33,846 nucleotides of DNA, taken from positions 1 through 33,846 of IMG/VR virus record IMGVR_UViG_3300025769_000432; one strand, 5' to 3'. This stretch comes from a virus. Positions within the stretch are counted from its first letter, which is position 1, and each line of letters begins with the position of its first letter. Positions 3,555-13,363 of this stretch are shown one piece after another. The position numbers and the translations under genes are program-made. A model generated the notes under the pieces. That model did no database searches and was not told where the DNA came from. It saw only the letters and a list, made by a program, of their open reading frames with translations.

Positions 3555-4237
3555 TACTTTAATTCTGGGAACACACTAACTAGGTGATCTAGGTCTGCGG
3601 GTTGGGCTCTGTGGGTATGCACATGTATGTCCTCCCCAGTCTTTATATCTAGTGCTGCTTCAAACTCTCTGTAAGAGATGGCCTCTACTCTATCTCTCCC
3701 CACTGTTTTGTTCGTCATCCCATCCAGATTGCTGTTTCTCTCTAGGTTATGGACAAACCTCCCAGTCTTACCTATCTCTTCCCACAGGTCTCGGCGTGAC
3801 CCCCTTCCCACTTTGCTTATTTTCCTGGCTGCTCTGGTGTAATAGTGGGTGCATGTTTCGTTGCCTTGGTGTAGGGCAATGAAGTTTCTAAGACCAAAAT
3901 ACTCCTTGCCTCCTCGTGCTGCATCTATCCAGGCCTGTATGTATCTGTCAGACAGCAAGTTATTGCTATCCATCTCGAAAAGGTAGTCCCATTCGTACTG
4001 CAACGTGTTCAGCATTGCATTGTTGTACTTGGTTGCAACTGGGAAGTTGGGCTCTTCAAATACGTTGTATCCCCTCAGTAGGGCACGTGCCGTGTGATCT
4101 GGCTCTGAAGATGTGATGAGTACCTCAGACTCTATGCCTGCCTCTTTTAGCCTCTGCTGTATCCTGTCAAATCCTCTGTAAGTAAGCTCTGTAACTTCCG
4201 GCCTTTTCCACACGAGTGTGTGTATCAGTACTTTCAT
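3545..4237 (-). CDS. GT-A (family 2-like) glycosyltransferase
   Basis: 230 residues from the ATG at 4235-4237, which overlaps the endolysin stop as ATGA; an in-frame start at 4279 is less likely. The N-terminus MKVLIHTLVWKRPEVTEL has the first strand and turn of GT-A glycosyltransferases (nucleotide-sugar binding). LLRGYNVFEEPN and KYNNAMLN follow the family-2 order, and EWDYLFEMDSNNLL carries the acidic DxN/DxD-type metal site. C-terminal HVHTHRAQPADL may contribute acceptor or metal contacts. Donor and acceptor are unknown. Together with the second glycosyltransferase and methyltransferase in this operon it suggests phage-directed glycan synthesis. Confidence 0.7.
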   Translation of the reverse strand: MKVLIHTLVWKRPEVTELTYRGFDRIQQRLKEAGIESEVLITSSEPDHTARALLRGYNVFEEPNFPVATKYNNAMLNTLQYEWDYLFEMDSNNLLSDRYIQAWIDAARGGKEYFGLRNFIALHQGNETCTHYYTRAARKISKVGRGSRRDLWEEIGKTGRFVHNLERNSNLDGMTNKTVGRDRVEAISYREFEAALDIKTGEDIHVHTHRAQPADLDHLVSVFPELKYWL

Positions 4238-4650
4238 AGATGGTTTGGGAATTTTTTGCTGACCTTGAATCCAGGACATGCCTTTGAACTGAACTCATTG
4301 TGTCCGTGCAATGTAAGGTGTTTGTCCCACACCATTCGCAATGAGTATATCAATTCTTTGAGTGCTGCCTCTTGACAGTCATTCAGGGTGTCCTTGGGGT
4401 TCATGTCTGTGTCAGCTCCCCCAATATAGCAGATACCAATGGAGTCATCGTTGTGTCCCTTCGTGTGTGCTCCTGCGATATGTATGGGTCTTCCCCCTTC
4501 TATCGTCCCGTCTAGCTTGATCACATAGTGGTAGCCTATGTCTGACCACCCATTCCCATTCACGTGCCAGTCTCGGATTGTTGCTGCATCTATGTCTCTC
4601 TCTTCTGGAGTTGCTGAGCAGTGTAGGATTATGCGATTGATTTCTCTCAT
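4234..4650 (-). CDS. N-acetylmuramoyl-L-alanine amidase (T7 lysozyme-type endolysin)
   Basis: A 138-residue Amidase_2 protein, near the size of T7 lysozyme. It should cut the amide bond between N-acetylmuramic acid and L-alanine in peptidoglycan. Zinc ligands and catalytic residues align: H10 (ILHCSAT), Y40 (GYHYVI), H117 (LHGHNEF), K123 and C125 (SSKACPGF), matching T7 H17, Y46, H122, K128 and C130, including the 8-residue spacing of the last His and Cys. There is no signal peptide, so release needs a holin not identified here. It is the first gene of the leftward operon, behind a promoter at 4887-4917 and a long leader. T7 lysozyme also inhibits T7 RNA polymerase; nothing here shows that. 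Confidence 0.9.
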   Translation of the reverse strand: MREINRIILHCSATPEERDIDAATIRDWHVNGNGWSDIGYHYVIKLDGTIEGGRPIHIAGAHTKGHNDDSIGICYIGGADTDMNPKDTLNDCQEAALKELIYSLRMVWDKHLTLHGHNEFSSKACPGFKVSKKFPNHL

Positions 4651-4880
4651 GGATACAAGTATTCCCCCTTGGTTTTGTGTTTAACGTTGGATTTCCACTC
4701 GCCGTGTTTAGCCTACGTGGGGGCATTTCTGTCAGCCTATAGCCTTGTTCCCACCCGAGTTTTATACCAACGCACTTTTCGAAACTACCGGGGACAACGT
4801 TCACTGCCTATGGTGACAGCTACTGTAACCCGATGTCTAGGCCCCTTTTTGGTTACCGAGGGCCGGTCGCTTGTGCGGTC
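4651..4880 (-). promoter_or_regulatory. Long, apparently structured 5' leader of the endolysin operon
   Basis: About 230 bases separate the probable start of transcription (near 4880) from the endolysin ATG. No convincing gene lies in either direction. Read as minus-strand RNA it is GC-richer than the other leaders and holds several possible stems, such as ACCG/CGGT, and GGT-T-ACAG paired with CTGT-C-ACC around a TAG loop. A transcribed regulatory leader or an unrecognised small RNA are both possible. Confidence 0.35.
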
Positions 4881-4886
4881 TCTTGG

Positions 4887-4917
4887 CAAATATACATCGG
4901 ACACTACTATGACACAA
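4887..4917 (-). promoter_or_regulatory. Bacteroidota-type promoter for the leftward late operon
   Basis: On the minus strand: TTG (4917-4915), 20-base spacer, TATATTTG (4894-4887), a perfect consensus. It has the same TATATTTG box and the same TATTG at the -33 position as the promoter of the GroES-like gene. It points into the endolysin operon from the divergent intergenic region. Confidence 0.65.
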
Positions 4918-4966: not shown

Positions 4967-6880
4967 ATGCGTTCATTTATACTCTCACTTTTTGCTATCA
5001 CCTTAGCACTCAATATATCAGCACAGGAGTGTGCTACCGATCTTCTGCCTCAAGTTAAGATTATGGGGCTGAACCGGTCAGACGTCAACTTGGCTGATGT
5101 AGAGGTTGCCACTCTCCCCGTTGTGTTCCATATTATGCACCTTGGGGAACCTATTGGGGAAAGCTTCAACGTATCTGATGAGCAGGTTCTAGAGGCACTG
5201 GTTGAGAGCAACAACCACTTCAGAAAGGTGCCTGGTAGTACAGGTGATGGTATTGGGGTAGATACCAAGATAGACTTTTGCCTTGCTCAGAGAGATCCCA
5301 ATGGGAATCCTACGACTGGTATTGTTAGGTATGACCTGTCTGGGTATCCTGCATACGTCAACAATGGTGTTGCTGTTAGTGGGTTGGATGATGGTATGCC
5401 GGACCTGCAGCTTAAGTCACTTGGGTGCTGGGATGTGGATAGGTATGTGAATGTGTACATTGTTACTCAGATCAATGGGAGCAACGGCATCAACGGGTAT
5501 GCATACCCCGGTCCTACAAATAACTGTTTGGATGGGGTTGTTCTTCGGTACTCCAAGTTTGTGATTACTGACTCCAACCTTGGTAAGACTTTTACGCATG
5601 AGCTTGGTCACTACTTGAACCTTCAGCATACCTTCCTAAATACCTTCGACTGTGGGTCTGAGGGCAACTGCGAGACACAGGGAGATATGGTGTGTGATAC
5701 ACCCCCGACGATTACCAACGTATCCTGTGTGAGTCCTGCATGTCCTGGAGCCATGGTAGAAAACTACATGGATTATACGGGTCAGGTGTGTAGAGATTCA
5801 TACACGCAGGGGCAGGCAGAGAGAATGCATGCATGCATAGTAAATGAGAGAGCGGACCTGATTGACAACTTGAACTGCGTACCCCCTGTAGACTTCGATG
5901 CTGGTTTGGCTAACCTTGTATACAAGCCAGAGTTCTGCTTGGAGAACCAGGATGTCTCAGTCAATGTGATTGGGACTGCGCTCAATACCATGCCTGCAGC
6001 GACTGTTGTTCTTACAGCGAATGGTGTGTCTTATGAGCAGTGGGTTTACGATGTGGAATATGGGGGCTCGTACGAGGTGGTGTTTGAGGGGGTACCTGTG
6101 CAGGGTGACTTTGATGTTGTTCTTGTCTCTGAGTCTGATCAGTATGCAGGCAATGACTCTCTTTCTGGGAACGTGGCATACTCTCCTGGTGCATTGTGGG
6201 AGATGGACTTTACCAGTGGGTTCTTTGCAAGCGAGACCAACTGGGTGCTTGTGGGGCAGGATAGCAAGGATGTGATTATTGGGGATGGTCCTTGGAGTGC
6301 TGGGATTACAACTCGCAGCTACGAGACTTGTCTGTCTAGTGGGTGCTACAACTTTATTATTGAGGATGCAGGTGGGGATGGTATTCAGTATGGGGGTGAG
6401 GTAGACATGTTCCTGAACGGTGAGCTTATTGGGGTTGATGTTTCAGGGGATGACTGGAGTCAGCTTGTCTTTGACTTCTGTGTTGATGGGGTCGAGAATG
6501 ACTGCATTGCAGACATAGACAATGATGGGGTTGTTGGGGTAGAAGATGCATCTCTCTTGATGAACGACTACCAGTGTGTGGGTGATTGTGTTGGGGACAT
6601 CAACGGGGATCAGATTGTTAACGTGCTCGACCTGCTGGAGTTCTTGACTGAGTTCGGGAGAACAGATTGCCTTGTTGAACCTGCTTTGTCAATAGGTGTT
6701 GTTACGTCTGTCACAGAGCTTGAGGGTCAGCTTGAACCAAGCACAAACGGGCAAGCATCTGGCAAGCCTGTGTATTACGATATGTCTGGGAGAGTTGTCC
6801 CGGGACCTGTCGAAAATCTTGCTTCTGGTATTTACATCGTAAAGTGTAACCTGGAGACCAAGAAGATATTTGTTCAATAA
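4967..6880 (+). CDS. Secreted M43 metalloprotease with type A T9SS sorting domain
   Basis: 637 residues. A signal peptide (1-20, cleaved near SAQ) starts the protein. Residues about 45-305 form a pappalysin-type M43 zinc protease: HELGHYLNLQH gives ligands H211, H215, H221 and catalytic E212, and NYMDY (M268) is the Met-turn, followed by QGQAERM. Residues about 310-400 look like a CARDB/Ig-type domain. LSSGCYNFIIEDAGGDGI (about 457-473) begins a beta domain common in Bacteroidota exoproteins. Residues 511-568 hold two dockerin-like calcium loops (DIDNDGVVGVED, DINGDQIVNVLD). The end, YYDMSGRVV...SGIYIVK...KKIFVQ, is a type A T9SS C-terminal domain. Host T9SS would export it to the cell surface or medium. 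It is followed 14 bp later by a second T9SS protein. It looks host-derived; all catalytic residues are intact. Confidence 0.88.
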   Translation: MRSFILSLFAITLALNISAQECATDLLPQVKIMGLNRSDVNLADVEVATLPVVFHIMHLGEPIGESFNVSDEQVLEALVESNNHFRKVPGSTGDGIGVDTKIDFCLAQRDPNGNPTTGIVRYDLSGYPAYVNNGVAVSGLDDGMPDLQLKSLGCWDVDRYVNVYIVTQINGSNGINGYAYPGPTNNCLDGVVLRYSKFVITDSNLGKTFTHELGHYLNLQHTFLNTFDCGSEGNCETQGDMVCDTPPTITNVSCVSPACPGAMVENYMDYTGQVCRDSYTQGQAERMHACIVNERADLIDNLNCVPPVDFDAGLANLVYKPEFCLENQDVSVNVIGTALNTMPAATVVLTANGVSYEQWVYDVEYGGSYEVVFEGVPVQGDFDVVLVSESDQYAGNDSLSGNVAYSPGALWEMDFTSGFFASETNWVLVGQDSKDVIIGDGPWSAGITTRSYETCLSSGCYNFIIEDAGGDGIQYGGEVDMFLNGELIGVDVSGDDWSQLVFDFCVDGVENDCIADIDNDGVVGVEDASLLMNDYQCVGDCVGDINGDQIVNVLDLLEFLTEFGRTDCLVEPALSIGVVTSVTELEGQLEPSTNGQASGKPVYYDMSGRVVPGPVENLASGIYIVKCNLETKKIFVQ

Positions 6881-6894
6881 CTAAACTTTGATGA

Positions 6895-8046
6895 ATGATT
6901 AAGAAGCTTATTTGGTTTTTGATCCCACTAATGTCTTGGGGTCAGTGTGACATAGAGATCTACGGGTTCAATCCGATATCTACGGATCTTACACTTGTAG
7001 TTAACAACGGTCAGTGCGGGACAGAGGCAGATAGCATTGGGGAGTTTATTCTCGGTCTGTCGTTCAACCCCCCTGTTTTCCCATCACCGTTCCAGTGTCT
7101 TAGTGAGGACTCCCAATGGGCTCTACTTCTTTACCCCTTGAACTTCCCAGGCTTTGAGATAGGTCAGGGGCCTGACAATATCCTGCAGACGGGGGATACT
7201 ATTACGTTTAATATACTTGACGATACTCCTCTTGCTGGGAGTGGGACCCTTATGTGCTGGAGAAATGCGCTCCAGATTGGGTCCTATTTTGAGGAGTGCG
7301 TTATTCTCACAATTTTCCAGATCAATGACAGTGAGACAATACTTGGGGGACCTGGACTGGGTGGTTTCCCGTACCCAGATGTAAACATCCCTAACAACTT
7401 CCTGCAGTTCTCGCTGGCTGGTTCTTGCTACCCACCTCCTCCCCCGATTGTTTACGGGTGTATTGATGCGTCTGCTTTCAACTACAACGAGTTTGCTACG
7501 ATAAGTGACGGGAGTTGTCAGTATGGGGGATGCTTGGATGAGGAGGCAAGCAACTATGACTCTACTGCTGATGTGGATGATGGGAGCTGTGTGTACTCTG
7601 GGTGTCTGGATGTCAATGCATACAACTATGATGAGCAGGCTACTGAGGATGATGGTAGTTGTGTCTACCAGGGATGCCTAGACTTTGAGGCTCTGAACTT
7701 CTGCGAGGAGTGTACGATTGAGGGGGAGTGCATTTACGGCCCAGATGACCCCGACTGCAATGACCCGTGCATCAAAGCCCCCAACGTATTTACCCCGAAC
7801 GGGGACAACATCAATGAGTTCTGGCAGATTATAACGATTGACGAGTGCTGGTTGGAGTGGGACTGCAGACTCTACAACAGATGGGGTGATACTATATGGT
7901 ACTCAGCCGACCCATCAGATAGATGGAGTGGTGATTTCCTTGGGAGCCCTGTTTCAAACGGGGTATACGTATGGACTCTCAACGCTAGAACGTTTGAGTC
8001 TAGGAAGGTTATAGAAATGTCTGGGCACGTTACCGTGCTCCGTTAA
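6895..8046 (+). CDS. Secreted cysteine-repeat protein with type B T9SS sorting domain
   Basis: 383 residues with a short signal peptide (about 1-16, ending SWG). Residues 20-180 form a beta-rich domain of unknown type containing six cysteines. Residues 188-280 are four 24-residue repeats of pattern GCxDxxAxNYxxxATxDDGSCxY, the last degenerate; similar repeats occur in marine Flavobacteriia exoproteins, probably disulfide- and calcium-stabilised. Residues about 295-383 are the gliding-motility-associated type B T9SS C-terminal domain: PNVFTPNGDNINEFW, LYNRWGDTIWYS, WSGDF, GVYVWTL and terminal GHVTVLR. Type B substrates usually stay on or near the cell surface and need a PorP/SprF-type partner, which is not visible here. 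The ATG at 6895 follows the protease stop by 14 bp, so the two are co-transcribed. Confidence 0.85.
   Translation: MIKKLIWFLIPLMSWGQCDIEIYGFNPISTDLTLVVNNGQCGTEADSIGEFILGLSFNPPVFPSPFQCLSEDSQWALLLYPLNFPGFEIGQGPDNILQTGDTITFNILDDTPLAGSGTLMCWRNALQIGSYFEECVILTIFQINDSETILGGPGLGGFPYPDVNIPNNFLQFSLAGSCYPPPPPIVYGCIDASAFNYNEFATISDGSCQYGGCLDEEASNYDSTADVDDGSCVYSGCLDVNAYNYDEQATEDDGSCVYQGCLDFEALNFCEECTIEGECIYGPDDPDCNDPCIKAPNVFTPNGDNINEFWQIITIDECWLEWDCRLYNRWGDTIWYSADPSDRWSGDFLGSPVSNGVYVWTLNARTFESRKVIEMSGHVTVLR
7456..7734 (+). repeat. Four 72-bp coding repeats (24-residue Cys/Asp repeat)
   Basis: Repeat units begin at residues 188, 212, 236 and 260 of the type B protein, exactly 24 residues apart. Conserved positions are GC at the start, A-x-NY in the middle and DDGSC near the end. 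The fourth unit lacks the DDG signature and gains extra cysteines. The DNA copies have diverged in codon use, so this is an old tandem duplication. Confidence 0.85.
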
Positions 8047-9345: not shown

Positions 9346-9467
9346 AAGACACACTCGTCCGCTACTTACTCGTAGCATCAATGGCACTACTCATTGCATC
9401 ACTCACATCATGTGGTACAATGACACATTACTCATCAAGCTACTCTACATGCGCAGCTTATCAGTAA
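9342..9467 (+). CDS. Small lipoprotein, 41 residues
   Basis: The N-terminus MKDTLVRYLLVASMALLIAS is a lipoprotein signal peptide with lipobox LTSC (C24). The mature lipopeptide would be only 18 residues, rich in Ser and Tyr. No acidic surface-export signal follows the cysteine, so periplasm-facing anchoring is expected. It is linked by ATGA to the coiled-coil gene and overlaps the next secreted protein by 19 bp. Small phage lipoproteins in other systems act in superinfection exclusion (T5 Llp, phi80 Cor) or as outer spanins; neither can be decided here. Confidence 0.65.
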   Translation: MKDTLVRYLLVASMALLIASLTSCGTMTHYSSSYSTCAAYQ

Positions 9468-9775
9468 TACTACTACTGCTAGTCAGTATAAGTACAGCAC
9501 AATCTCAAGTCTACTGCTGTGAGGCGTTCGGTTACATACAGGATAACCACAAGAACTCTTACTGGGGGTCATTCAAGGAAGACATGACCATGATTGAGGT
9601 TACAGATAGGGACAGATGCAGTGAATCGCGTCTGCTCCCTATCACCGTGCTTGAAGTAAAACGTAGACGCAAGAATACTAGGATCGAGATCGTCATACAC
9701 TCTGATGATTTCGATTGTTGCACGTACCTGATAAAGCTATCGAACTACACGTACGATAAGTTTTATCTCAACTAA
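9449..9775 (+). CDS. Secreted or periplasmic hypothetical protein, 108 residues
   Basis: Started at the ATG at 9449 because MRSLSVILLLLVSISTAQSQ is a clean signal peptide with cleavage near AQS; the frame is open 39 bp further upstream, but that would disrupt the signal. The mature part is about 90 residues with five cysteines, including two CC pairs, and a basic strand (VLEVKRRRKNTRIEIVI) that suggests a small disulfide-bonded beta domain. No family is recognised. It overlaps the lipoprotein gene by 19 bp, so the two are translationally coupled and may act together in the envelope. The stop codon leads straight into the pseudoknot at 9775. Confidence 0.65.
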   Translation: MRSLSVILLLLVSISTAQSQVYCCEAFGYIQDNHKNSYWGSFKEDMTMIEVTDRDRCSESRLLPITVLEVKRRRKNTRIEIVIHSDDFDCCTYLIKLSNYTYDKFYLN

Positions 9776-12612: not shown

Positions 12613-12686
12613 GCCTCGGTAGCACAACTGGATAGTGCAACAGCCTTCTAAGCTGTAGGTTGTGGGTTCGAGTCCCGCTCGAGGTA
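12613..12686 (+). tRNA. tRNA-Arg (anticodon UCU)
   Basis: A 74-nt cloverleaf. The acceptor GCCTCGG/TCGAGGT has G-U pairs at both ends, the D-stem is GCAC/GTGC, and the anticodon stem ACAGC/GCTGT carries loop CTTCTAA (anticodon TCT at 12647-12649). The T-arm is GTGGG-TTCGAGT-CCCGC, the discriminator is A12686, and CCA is not encoded. It reads AGA codons. It lies directly behind polA in the same transcript and needs 3' processing and CCA addition by the host. Confidence 0.9.
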
Positions 12687-12738
12687 CGCGTGTGAGGCGA
12701 CAATAAGCCTGCTCGCAGTTTTCATTCAATTACAGGTG

Positions 12739-12770
12739 AGGGGCTGGTGAAACGTCACTGGCCCCTTTTT
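12739..12770 (+). terminator. Rho-independent terminator after the polA-tRNA unit
   Basis: AGGGGCTGGTGA (12739-12750) pairs with TCACTGGCCCCT (12755-12766) over 12 positions, two of them G-T, around AACG, followed by a short T-run. Confidence 0.8.
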
Positions 12771-12801
12771 GTCGCTAAAACATTTTTCAAACATTTATAT
12801 C

Positions 12802-13263
12802 ATGAAACATTTTATTGCTATCATTTTGATGGGGGGATTTTCTATCCTCAGTTATTCTCAAAACCTTCGGGTTGAAAAAGTAGATGAGTTCACAGGGAAC
12901 GTCATCAAGGTTACTGAAAGTGTCAAAGCTGGTACTCGTGGTAACAACAAGCTGTACATCTCTGTTCGCAGGGTAAATGATTCCTATGCACTGGAGCTTT
13001 GGAGTACATCAGATCAGGGATGTGGTGGTGCAGCTGGCAACTACGCAATTCTGCTGTCTTCAGATGGGGAAAACATTAAGTACAGTTCAGACATTCTAGA
13101 CGTTGATTGCAGTGACACTGCTTCTTCTTTGTATGTCATCAACATTGAAGAGCTGAAGAACTTCGATGTATCTAAGATTAGGTTTGCTCAGTCAGATACG
13201 TACGATGACTTTTCGTACGAGTGCGAGTACACATTTCAAGAACTAATCAAAGCTGTGGAATAA
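12802..13263 (+). CDS. Secreted hypothetical protein, 153 residues
   Basis: Started at the ATG at 12802, giving the signal peptide MKHFIAIILMGGFSILSYSQ; an in-frame TTG at 12769 lies inside the terminator and is rejected. The mature protein is beta-rich (KLYISVRRVNDSYALELWST, YAILLSSDGENI) with four cysteines and no membrane segment. It belongs to no family I recognise, but its style (signal ending SQ, small beta domain) is typical of Bacteroidota periplasmic proteins. It lies between two tRNA genes, after a G-free leader (12775-12801), which suggests an accessory cargo gene acting in the envelope. Confidence 0.65.
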   Translation: MKHFIAIILMGGFSILSYSQNLRVEKVDEFTGNVIKVTESVKAGTRGNNKLYISVRRVNDSYALELWSTSDQGCGGAAGNYAILLSSDGENIKYSSDILDVDCSDTASSLYVINIEELKNFDVSKIRFAQSDTYDDFSYECEYTFQELIKAVE

Positions 13264-13274
13264 TCACAGCTCCA

Positions 13275-13347
13275 GCGCCCTTAGCTCAGTGGTTAGAGCA
13301 GATGACTCATAATCATCCGGTCGCAGGTTCAAGTCCTGCAGGGCGCA
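13275..13347 (+). tRNA. tRNA with anticodon CAU (Met elongator or Ile2)
   Basis: A 73-nt cloverleaf. The acceptor GCGCCCT/AGGGCGC is perfect, the D-stem is GCTC/GAGC, and the anticodon stem GATGA/TCATC carries loop CTCATAA (CAT at 13308-13310). The T-arm is GCAGG-TTCAAGT-CCTGC, the discriminator is A13347, and no CCA is encoded. It is not an initiator: position 1-72 pairs and the anticodon stem lacks three G-C pairs. The loop context resembles tRNA-Ile2, whose C34 is modified to lysidine to read AUA, but elongator Met cannot be excluded. Confidence 0.9.
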
Positions 13348-13363
13348 CAAATAGATTCACAAC

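Follow-up and report, generated by a model that had tools for sequence, protein, structure and literature searches.

The closest described counterpart of the locus studied here is Cryophage, which encodes three type A cargo proteins of the type IX secretion system (T9SS), an endoglucanase, a GH39 and a PA14 protein, and for which hijacking of the host T9SS has been proposed (Bellas et al. 2020, PMC7468147). Literature searches found no other description of phage T9SS cargo than this one, and its publication in 2020 overturns the statement, made in a preliminary description of our locus, that no phage system of this kind had been described. Among characterised M43 proteases, mirolysin and cytophagalysin are secreted proteins. 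Cys23, from a Cys-Gly motif, acts in mirolysin as a cysteine switch that blocks the zinc (PMC6949598). Cytophagalysin of Cytophaga is presented, in the passages of PMC11674741 that concern it, as a 137 kDa pappalysin that has Ig-like domains and whose C-terminal domain is similar to the sorting domain of RgpB. Bacteroidota signal peptidase I substrates have a mature N-terminal Gln (the Q-rule), an argument used earlier for exported phage proteins of P. gingivalis (PMC10367356). Spanins used by Bacteroidetes phages are unimolecular only, according to a survey (PMC12596118).

Here we analysed a window of 33,846 bases that makes up an entire IMG/VR virus record. Phage genes occur all along it. 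The left end has a terminase fragment, and the other genes include those for an amidase endolysin, a DNA polymerase, a DnaB-like helicase and a DNA glycosylase. Among them lie two + strand open reading frames, separated by 14 bases, that encode an M43 protease and a type B T9SS cargo protein (Table 1), in agreement with the earlier claim of phage-resident genes bearing Bacteroidota export signals. The window also holds phage tRNA genes for Arg(tct) (12613-12687) and Met(cat) (13275-13348), and two further small proteins (9410-9775 and 12769-13263) that by inspection have signal peptides fitting the Q-rule and that lack a sorting domain.

Domain architecture and export signals

The M43 protease comprises, in order, a signal peptide, a short pro-segment, the catalytic domain, a CARDB/Ig-like domain, a Cys-rich beta region, dockerin-like repeats and a short type A-like tail. 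It exceeded the PF05572 cut-off of 23 bits by a wide margin (73 bits), all of its catalytic residues are kept across 17 phage homologues, and 60 of the 61 distinct phage M43 proteins have the zinc motif. The predicted model matched mirolysin with a Z score of 20.7 over 220 residues and ulilysin with a Z score of 19.6. These results confirm that the protease is catalytically complete, as first described. Cys22 sits two residues after the mature N-terminal Q20. The Gly that would complete a Cys-Gly motif is kept only in three deep-branching homologues (L007, L025 and L026) and not in the window protein; latency of the phage enzymes through the pro-segment cysteine seems likely. Further along the protein, the M43 family profile matched dockerin structures (E 1.5e-5).

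We compared the tail of the protease (SGRVV...LASGIYIVKCNLETKKIFVQ) with the type A sorting-domain profile TIGR04183, which has a cut-off of 23 bits. There was no match in the window at E 1e-3, nor in the M43 protein at E up to 10, and the homologues matched partially, mostly over model positions of about 23-72 (the last two thirds), at 9.6-15.9 bits. Membership of TIGR04183 is ruled out by these sub-threshold scores. The motif GR...L..GxYi....KK.fv, present at the C-terminus of 52 of the 61 distinct proteins, may be read as a clue to type A likeness. One clade (L037, L176, L178, L182, L188 and L207) has no tail, its proteins ending at the dockerin region, and retains the type B partner. Short M43 proteins with dockerin-like repeats and no type A-like tail were also seen elsewhere (L126:6516-7664, L128:1-702 and L142:5198-6394).

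The type B protein begins with a signal peptide and an N-terminal domain that we saw in phages only; four Cys repeats follow, and a type B sorting domain ends the protein. The sorting domain scored 45.2 bits against a TIGR04131 cut-off of 35, which was also passed in 16 of 29 related records, these being all 16 that matched at all. The predicted model of residues 288-383 resembled PorZ (Z 8.8) and the NucA sorting domain as seen within the T9SS translocon (Z 8.7, 2.1 A over 73 residues); Z scores near 8 mark a moderate match, and several T9SS domains were high in the ranking. Of the two sorting domains originally reported as intact, the type B domain was thus upheld and the type A domain, falling below its cut-off, was not. 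The N-terminal domain had no family in Pfam or PHROGs and no match in a PDB sequence search; the fold search covered mainly the C-terminal domain and therefore says nothing on the fold of the N-terminal one. Its absence from 395 sampled Bacteroidota genomes at 1e-8 is supportive only, because that search had no positive control among cells. Cys repeats similar to those of the window protein occur in proteins of cyanophage S-CAM3.

Signal peptides were assigned to both proteins by inspection, and in each case the predicted mature N-terminal Gln is invariant among homologues. Profile scores, together with conservation in divergent phages, place the features of the pair beyond chance. There is good support for the view that both proteins are designed to be exported in a Bacteroidota-type host. 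The evidence points strongly to passage of the type B protein through the T9SS; for the M43 protease such passage is plausible.

Table 1. Positions of the cassette features and of the neighbouring endolysin in the window
Feature	Position	Strand	Evidence
Phage pappalysin (M43) protease, 637 aa	4967..6880	+	PF05572 73 bits; 17-row alignment; mirolysin/ulilysin fold match
M43 signal peptide MRSFILSLFAITLALNISA, predicted cleavage before Q20 (Q-rule)	4967..5023	+	Q20 invariant in 17 homologues
Cys22, candidate cysteine-switch residue of pro-segment	5030..5032	+	Invariant in 17 homologues
Zinc-binding motif HELGHYLNLQH, residues 211-221	5597..5629	+	Catalytic residues invariant in 17-homologue alignment
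Met-turn ENYMDY, residues 265-270	5759..5776	+	M268, D269, Y270 invariant (17 homologues)
CARDB/Ig-like domain, about residues 307-408	5885..6190	+	3idu Z 12.3, rmsd 2.0 over 101 residues
Dockerin-like calcium-binding repeats, residues 513-566	6503..6664	+	NF041540 18.4 bits, PF00404 15.2 bits, both below cut-off
Short type A-like T9SS tail YYDMSGRVVPGPVENLASGIYIVKCNLETKKIFVQ	6773..6877	+	Below TIGR04183 cut-off; motif kept in 52/61 phage homologues
Type B T9SS cargo protein, 383 aa	6895..8046	+	TIGR04131 45.2 bits; PF13585 54.6 bits; 13-row alignment
Type B protein signal peptide MIKKLIWFLIPLMSWG, predicted cleavage before Q17 (Q-rule)	6895..6942	+	Q17 invariant in 13 homologues
N-terminal domain without known family	6943..7419	+	0/395 Bacteroidota genomes match at 1e-8; model confidence low
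Four repeats GCxDxxAxNYxxxATxxDGSCxY	7453..7740	+	Sequence
Type B T9SS C-terminal sorting domain, residues 293-383	7771..8043	+	TIGR04131/PF13585; model pLDDT about 70-92
Endolysin, N-acetylmuramoyl-L-alanine amidase	4234..4650	-	PF01510 53.2 bits; phrog_822 E 2.7e-52; divergent from M43/type B pair

Distribution and origin among phages

Every related phage sequence comes from a metagenomic contig in IMG/VR. One of these contigs (L001) repeats the block together with its left junction and left-hand neighbours at 99-100% identity, and dozens of others carry homologous M43/type B pairs among phage genes. When the viral collection was scanned, M43 relatives had 29-62% identity and those of the type B protein 27-73%. 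The loci that we gathered fell into 38 M43 clusters at 80% identity; where at least 2 kb of flank was available on each side, a type B gene was adjacent on the same strand in 19 of 30 clusters, its start usually overlapped by the M43 gene. GenBank phage records (INPHARED) held no close relatives of the pair and gave partial matches only. Sorting-domain-like stretches were seen in two huge uncultured phage genomes (LR745206.1:27526-27963 and LR756502.1:519121-519387). Related phages encode further large secreted proteins whose ends are type A-like (L076:2322-4811, near the amidase, and L188:12332-14401, near the pair).

In the M43 tree, 30 phage catalytic domains formed one group with moderate support (89/70), apart from the sampled cellular relatives, and two other phage pairs were placed outside it. 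There may therefore have been more than one capture. Identity to the best cellular M43 relatives is about 30-47% and extends over part of the protein, and the best cellular sequence found covered model positions 37-525 of 646 at 34-39% identity. Although the terminases of the window phage and L023 are 89% identical, their M43 proteins fall into different supported subclades, which suggests that M43 genes have been exchanged between phages.

Within the clade of the window phage the cassette is patchily distributed. Among 23 larger records with the same terminase type, two encode a short, tail-less M43 protein and two others a type B domain; in four, another protein has a type A domain that exceeds the cut-off. 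The rarity of the M43 and type B genes in these records implies that the cassette is accessory and dispensable for lysis in this clade. T9SS-tagged cargo is thus recurrent but variable in the phage group to which the window belongs.

Gene neighbourhood and proposed role

To place the pair in its genomic setting, we recorded its neighbours across loci. An endolysin lies within 1.5 kb of the M43 gene in 11 of 30 clusters, compared with 8% of 403 control open reading frames from the same loci; when a coiled-coil gene is counted too, the figures are 13 of 30 and 9%. This control is rough, since the loci are centred on the cassette and two endolysin types only were sought, and the endolysin signal thins to 3 of 12 when clusters are drawn at 60%. 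In several lineages the M43 gene is followed by the type B gene, which is sometimes missing, then by a gene for a 67 aa TM coiled-coil protein and finally by an endolysin gene (M15 or amidase). The coiled-coil protein weakly resembles a holin (phrog_1296, E 3.4e-4 in L013 and 0.0047 in L033) and has no Pfam family over cut-off. Amidases that are 42-50% identical adjoin the pair in L021, L022 and L033-L035, short M43 genes lie directly upstream of an amidase in L126 and L128, and in nine of the L246-L258 loci an M15 endolysin precedes a type B gene that has no M43 with it. Elsewhere (L160, L163, L168 and L198) the pair comes after replication or nucleotide genes, and the genes that it faces are on the other strand; together with its divergence from the amidase in the window, this position means that expression may be timed earlier.

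A conserved structured RNA element (4651-4894, - strand) lies immediately upstream of the amidase gene in the window, and similar sequence is found in more than 40 related phage loci. In an alignment of 28 sequences, 15 of 45 pairs had changed on both sides, a result reached by none of 500 shuffles, with slid controls far lower. An Rfam search with E up to 1 gave no match, and the 5' end of the element opens with a Bacteroidota -7-like TATATTTG. The element is a candidate new late-operon leader RNA.

We tentatively propose, at a little short of an even chance, that the M43 and type B proteins are phage-encoded T9SS cargo placed on the surface of the infected cell, most likely serving the end of infection through lysis or egress. 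The proposal draws on the type B domain over its cut-off, the invariant Q-rule Gln, the intact catalytic site, the mirolysin-like fold with its conserved Cys22, the secretion of mirolysin and cytophagalysin, the conservation of the pair, the endolysin linkage and the lack of an integrase in 25 records; it is weakened by the sub-threshold M43 tail and the tail-less clade, by the loci in which the pair is divergent from the amidase or follows replication genes, by the rarity of the cassette among records with the window's terminase type, and by the tendency of accessory genes to cluster near late genes anyway. From sequence, domain content, fold, conservation and synteny we infer export, activation, anchoring, timing, substrate and role as follows. 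The host Sec pathway would take both proteins out, and signal peptidase I would cut both before Gln. The host T9SS would move both over the outer membrane, using the type B domain of the type B protein and, less certainly, the short type A-like tail of the protease. The pappalysin would travel latent through its pro-segment cysteine and turn active outside, and the type B protein would end up at the cell surface or close to it. Cleavage of outer-surface proteins would then open the envelope and let progeny leave rather than stick to debris, complementing the endolysin and holin. A bolder version, which we regard as rather unlikely, would make the pair a T9SS-dependent lysis/egress module of virulent phages of Bacteroidota-type hosts, in which the pappalysin, latent at first, and the type B surface protein would strip or open the outer surface in a spanin-like manner but from outside.

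The preliminary description had suggested that the exported proteins remodel receptors, block superinfection or process extracellular polymer; going by synteny, lysis or egress is an equally or more likely role. The main rival is receptor destruction or superinfection exclusion, whereby the exported protease would strip receptors displayed by the T9SS or on the outer membrane so that infected cells and debris no longer adsorb phages or progeny. Such a role was already proposed for the Cryophage cargo (PMC7468147), and it is consistent with a catalytically complete protease bearing surface-export signals, with the earlier expression that a place among replication genes would fit, and with the patchy presence and exchange expected of a fast-evolving interaction trait. 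Taken alone, it does not predict the repeated linkage to endolysin and TM coiled-coil genes; we consider it somewhat unlikely.

T9SS cargo proteins are often degradative enzymes, and the secreted protease could instead have an auxiliary function, releasing nutrients from extracellular polymer or aiding host competition. The variable cargo of Cryophage, which include an endoglucanase and a GH39 enzyme (PMC7468147), would fit such a function. It becomes improbable in view of the linkage to lysis genes and of the 25 records examined for an integrase, none of which has one. The latter result makes a lasting benefit to a lysogen unlikely for these phages and disfavours lysogenic conversion. A role in the virion, for example as a tail-associated enzyme and adhesin, might be read from the position of the pair after large, tail/fibre-like genes (so classed by position) in L021 and L033, and from the similar Cys repeats of a cyanophage protein annotated as virion structural, but it is highly improbable for proteins whose signal peptides and sorting domain lead out of the cytoplasm, where virions are assembled. 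That the block is an assembly chimera or recently captured host DNA, as might be supposed from the commonness of M43 pappalysins in Bacteroidota and as had been raised at the outset, is contradicted by its repetition in L001, the dozens of homologous pairs among phage genes, the distance of cellular M43 relatives, and the lack of matches to the type B N-terminal domain in 395 sampled Bacteroidota genomes.

If the end-of-infection role is correct, phages would routinely export their own enzymes through a bacterial secretion system during infection, and this export would be tied to lysis, a poorly understood step in Bacteroidota phages. The M43 and type B gene families provide concrete markers for cultured phage-host pairs.

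Comparison with known systems

The type B protein shares with the TIGR04131 cargo family a C-terminal domain over the curated score and the sorting-domain fold. It differs in an N-terminal domain found here only in phage contigs, and in that the exporter would be a virus-infected cell. The phage M43 proteins have the catalytic fold, the zinc and Met-turn motifs and the conserved pro-segment cysteine of mirolysin and ulilysin. Unlike these cellular enzymes, they add CARDB/Ig, dockerin-like and short tail regions, and most have only the Cys of the Cys-Gly motif. Cytophagalysin is the nearest bacterial design, with Ig-like domains and a sorting-domain-like end in common with the phage proteases, but it is a larger, bacterial protein, and the passages of PMC11674741 that describe it mention neither a phage link nor a type B partner.

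The likeness to phage spanins is one of function only, both being proposed to target the outer membrane as lysis is completed. The phage pair features a secreted protease rather than a membrane-fusion protein, and hydropathy and inspection revealed no lipobox and no internal or C-terminal transmembrane stretch in either protein. Another close system is Cryophage, whose cargo is likewise phage-encoded, bears T9SS sorting domains, has been proposed to use the host T9SS, and varies between Cryophage variants. There the cargo comprises three type A proteins, whereas here an M43 protease and a type B protein recur as a pair in many lineages and are linked to endolysins. Phage T9SS cargo itself thus has precedent; what is new is that a pappalysin and a type B protein recur as a pair, in many phages and frequently next to lysis genes.
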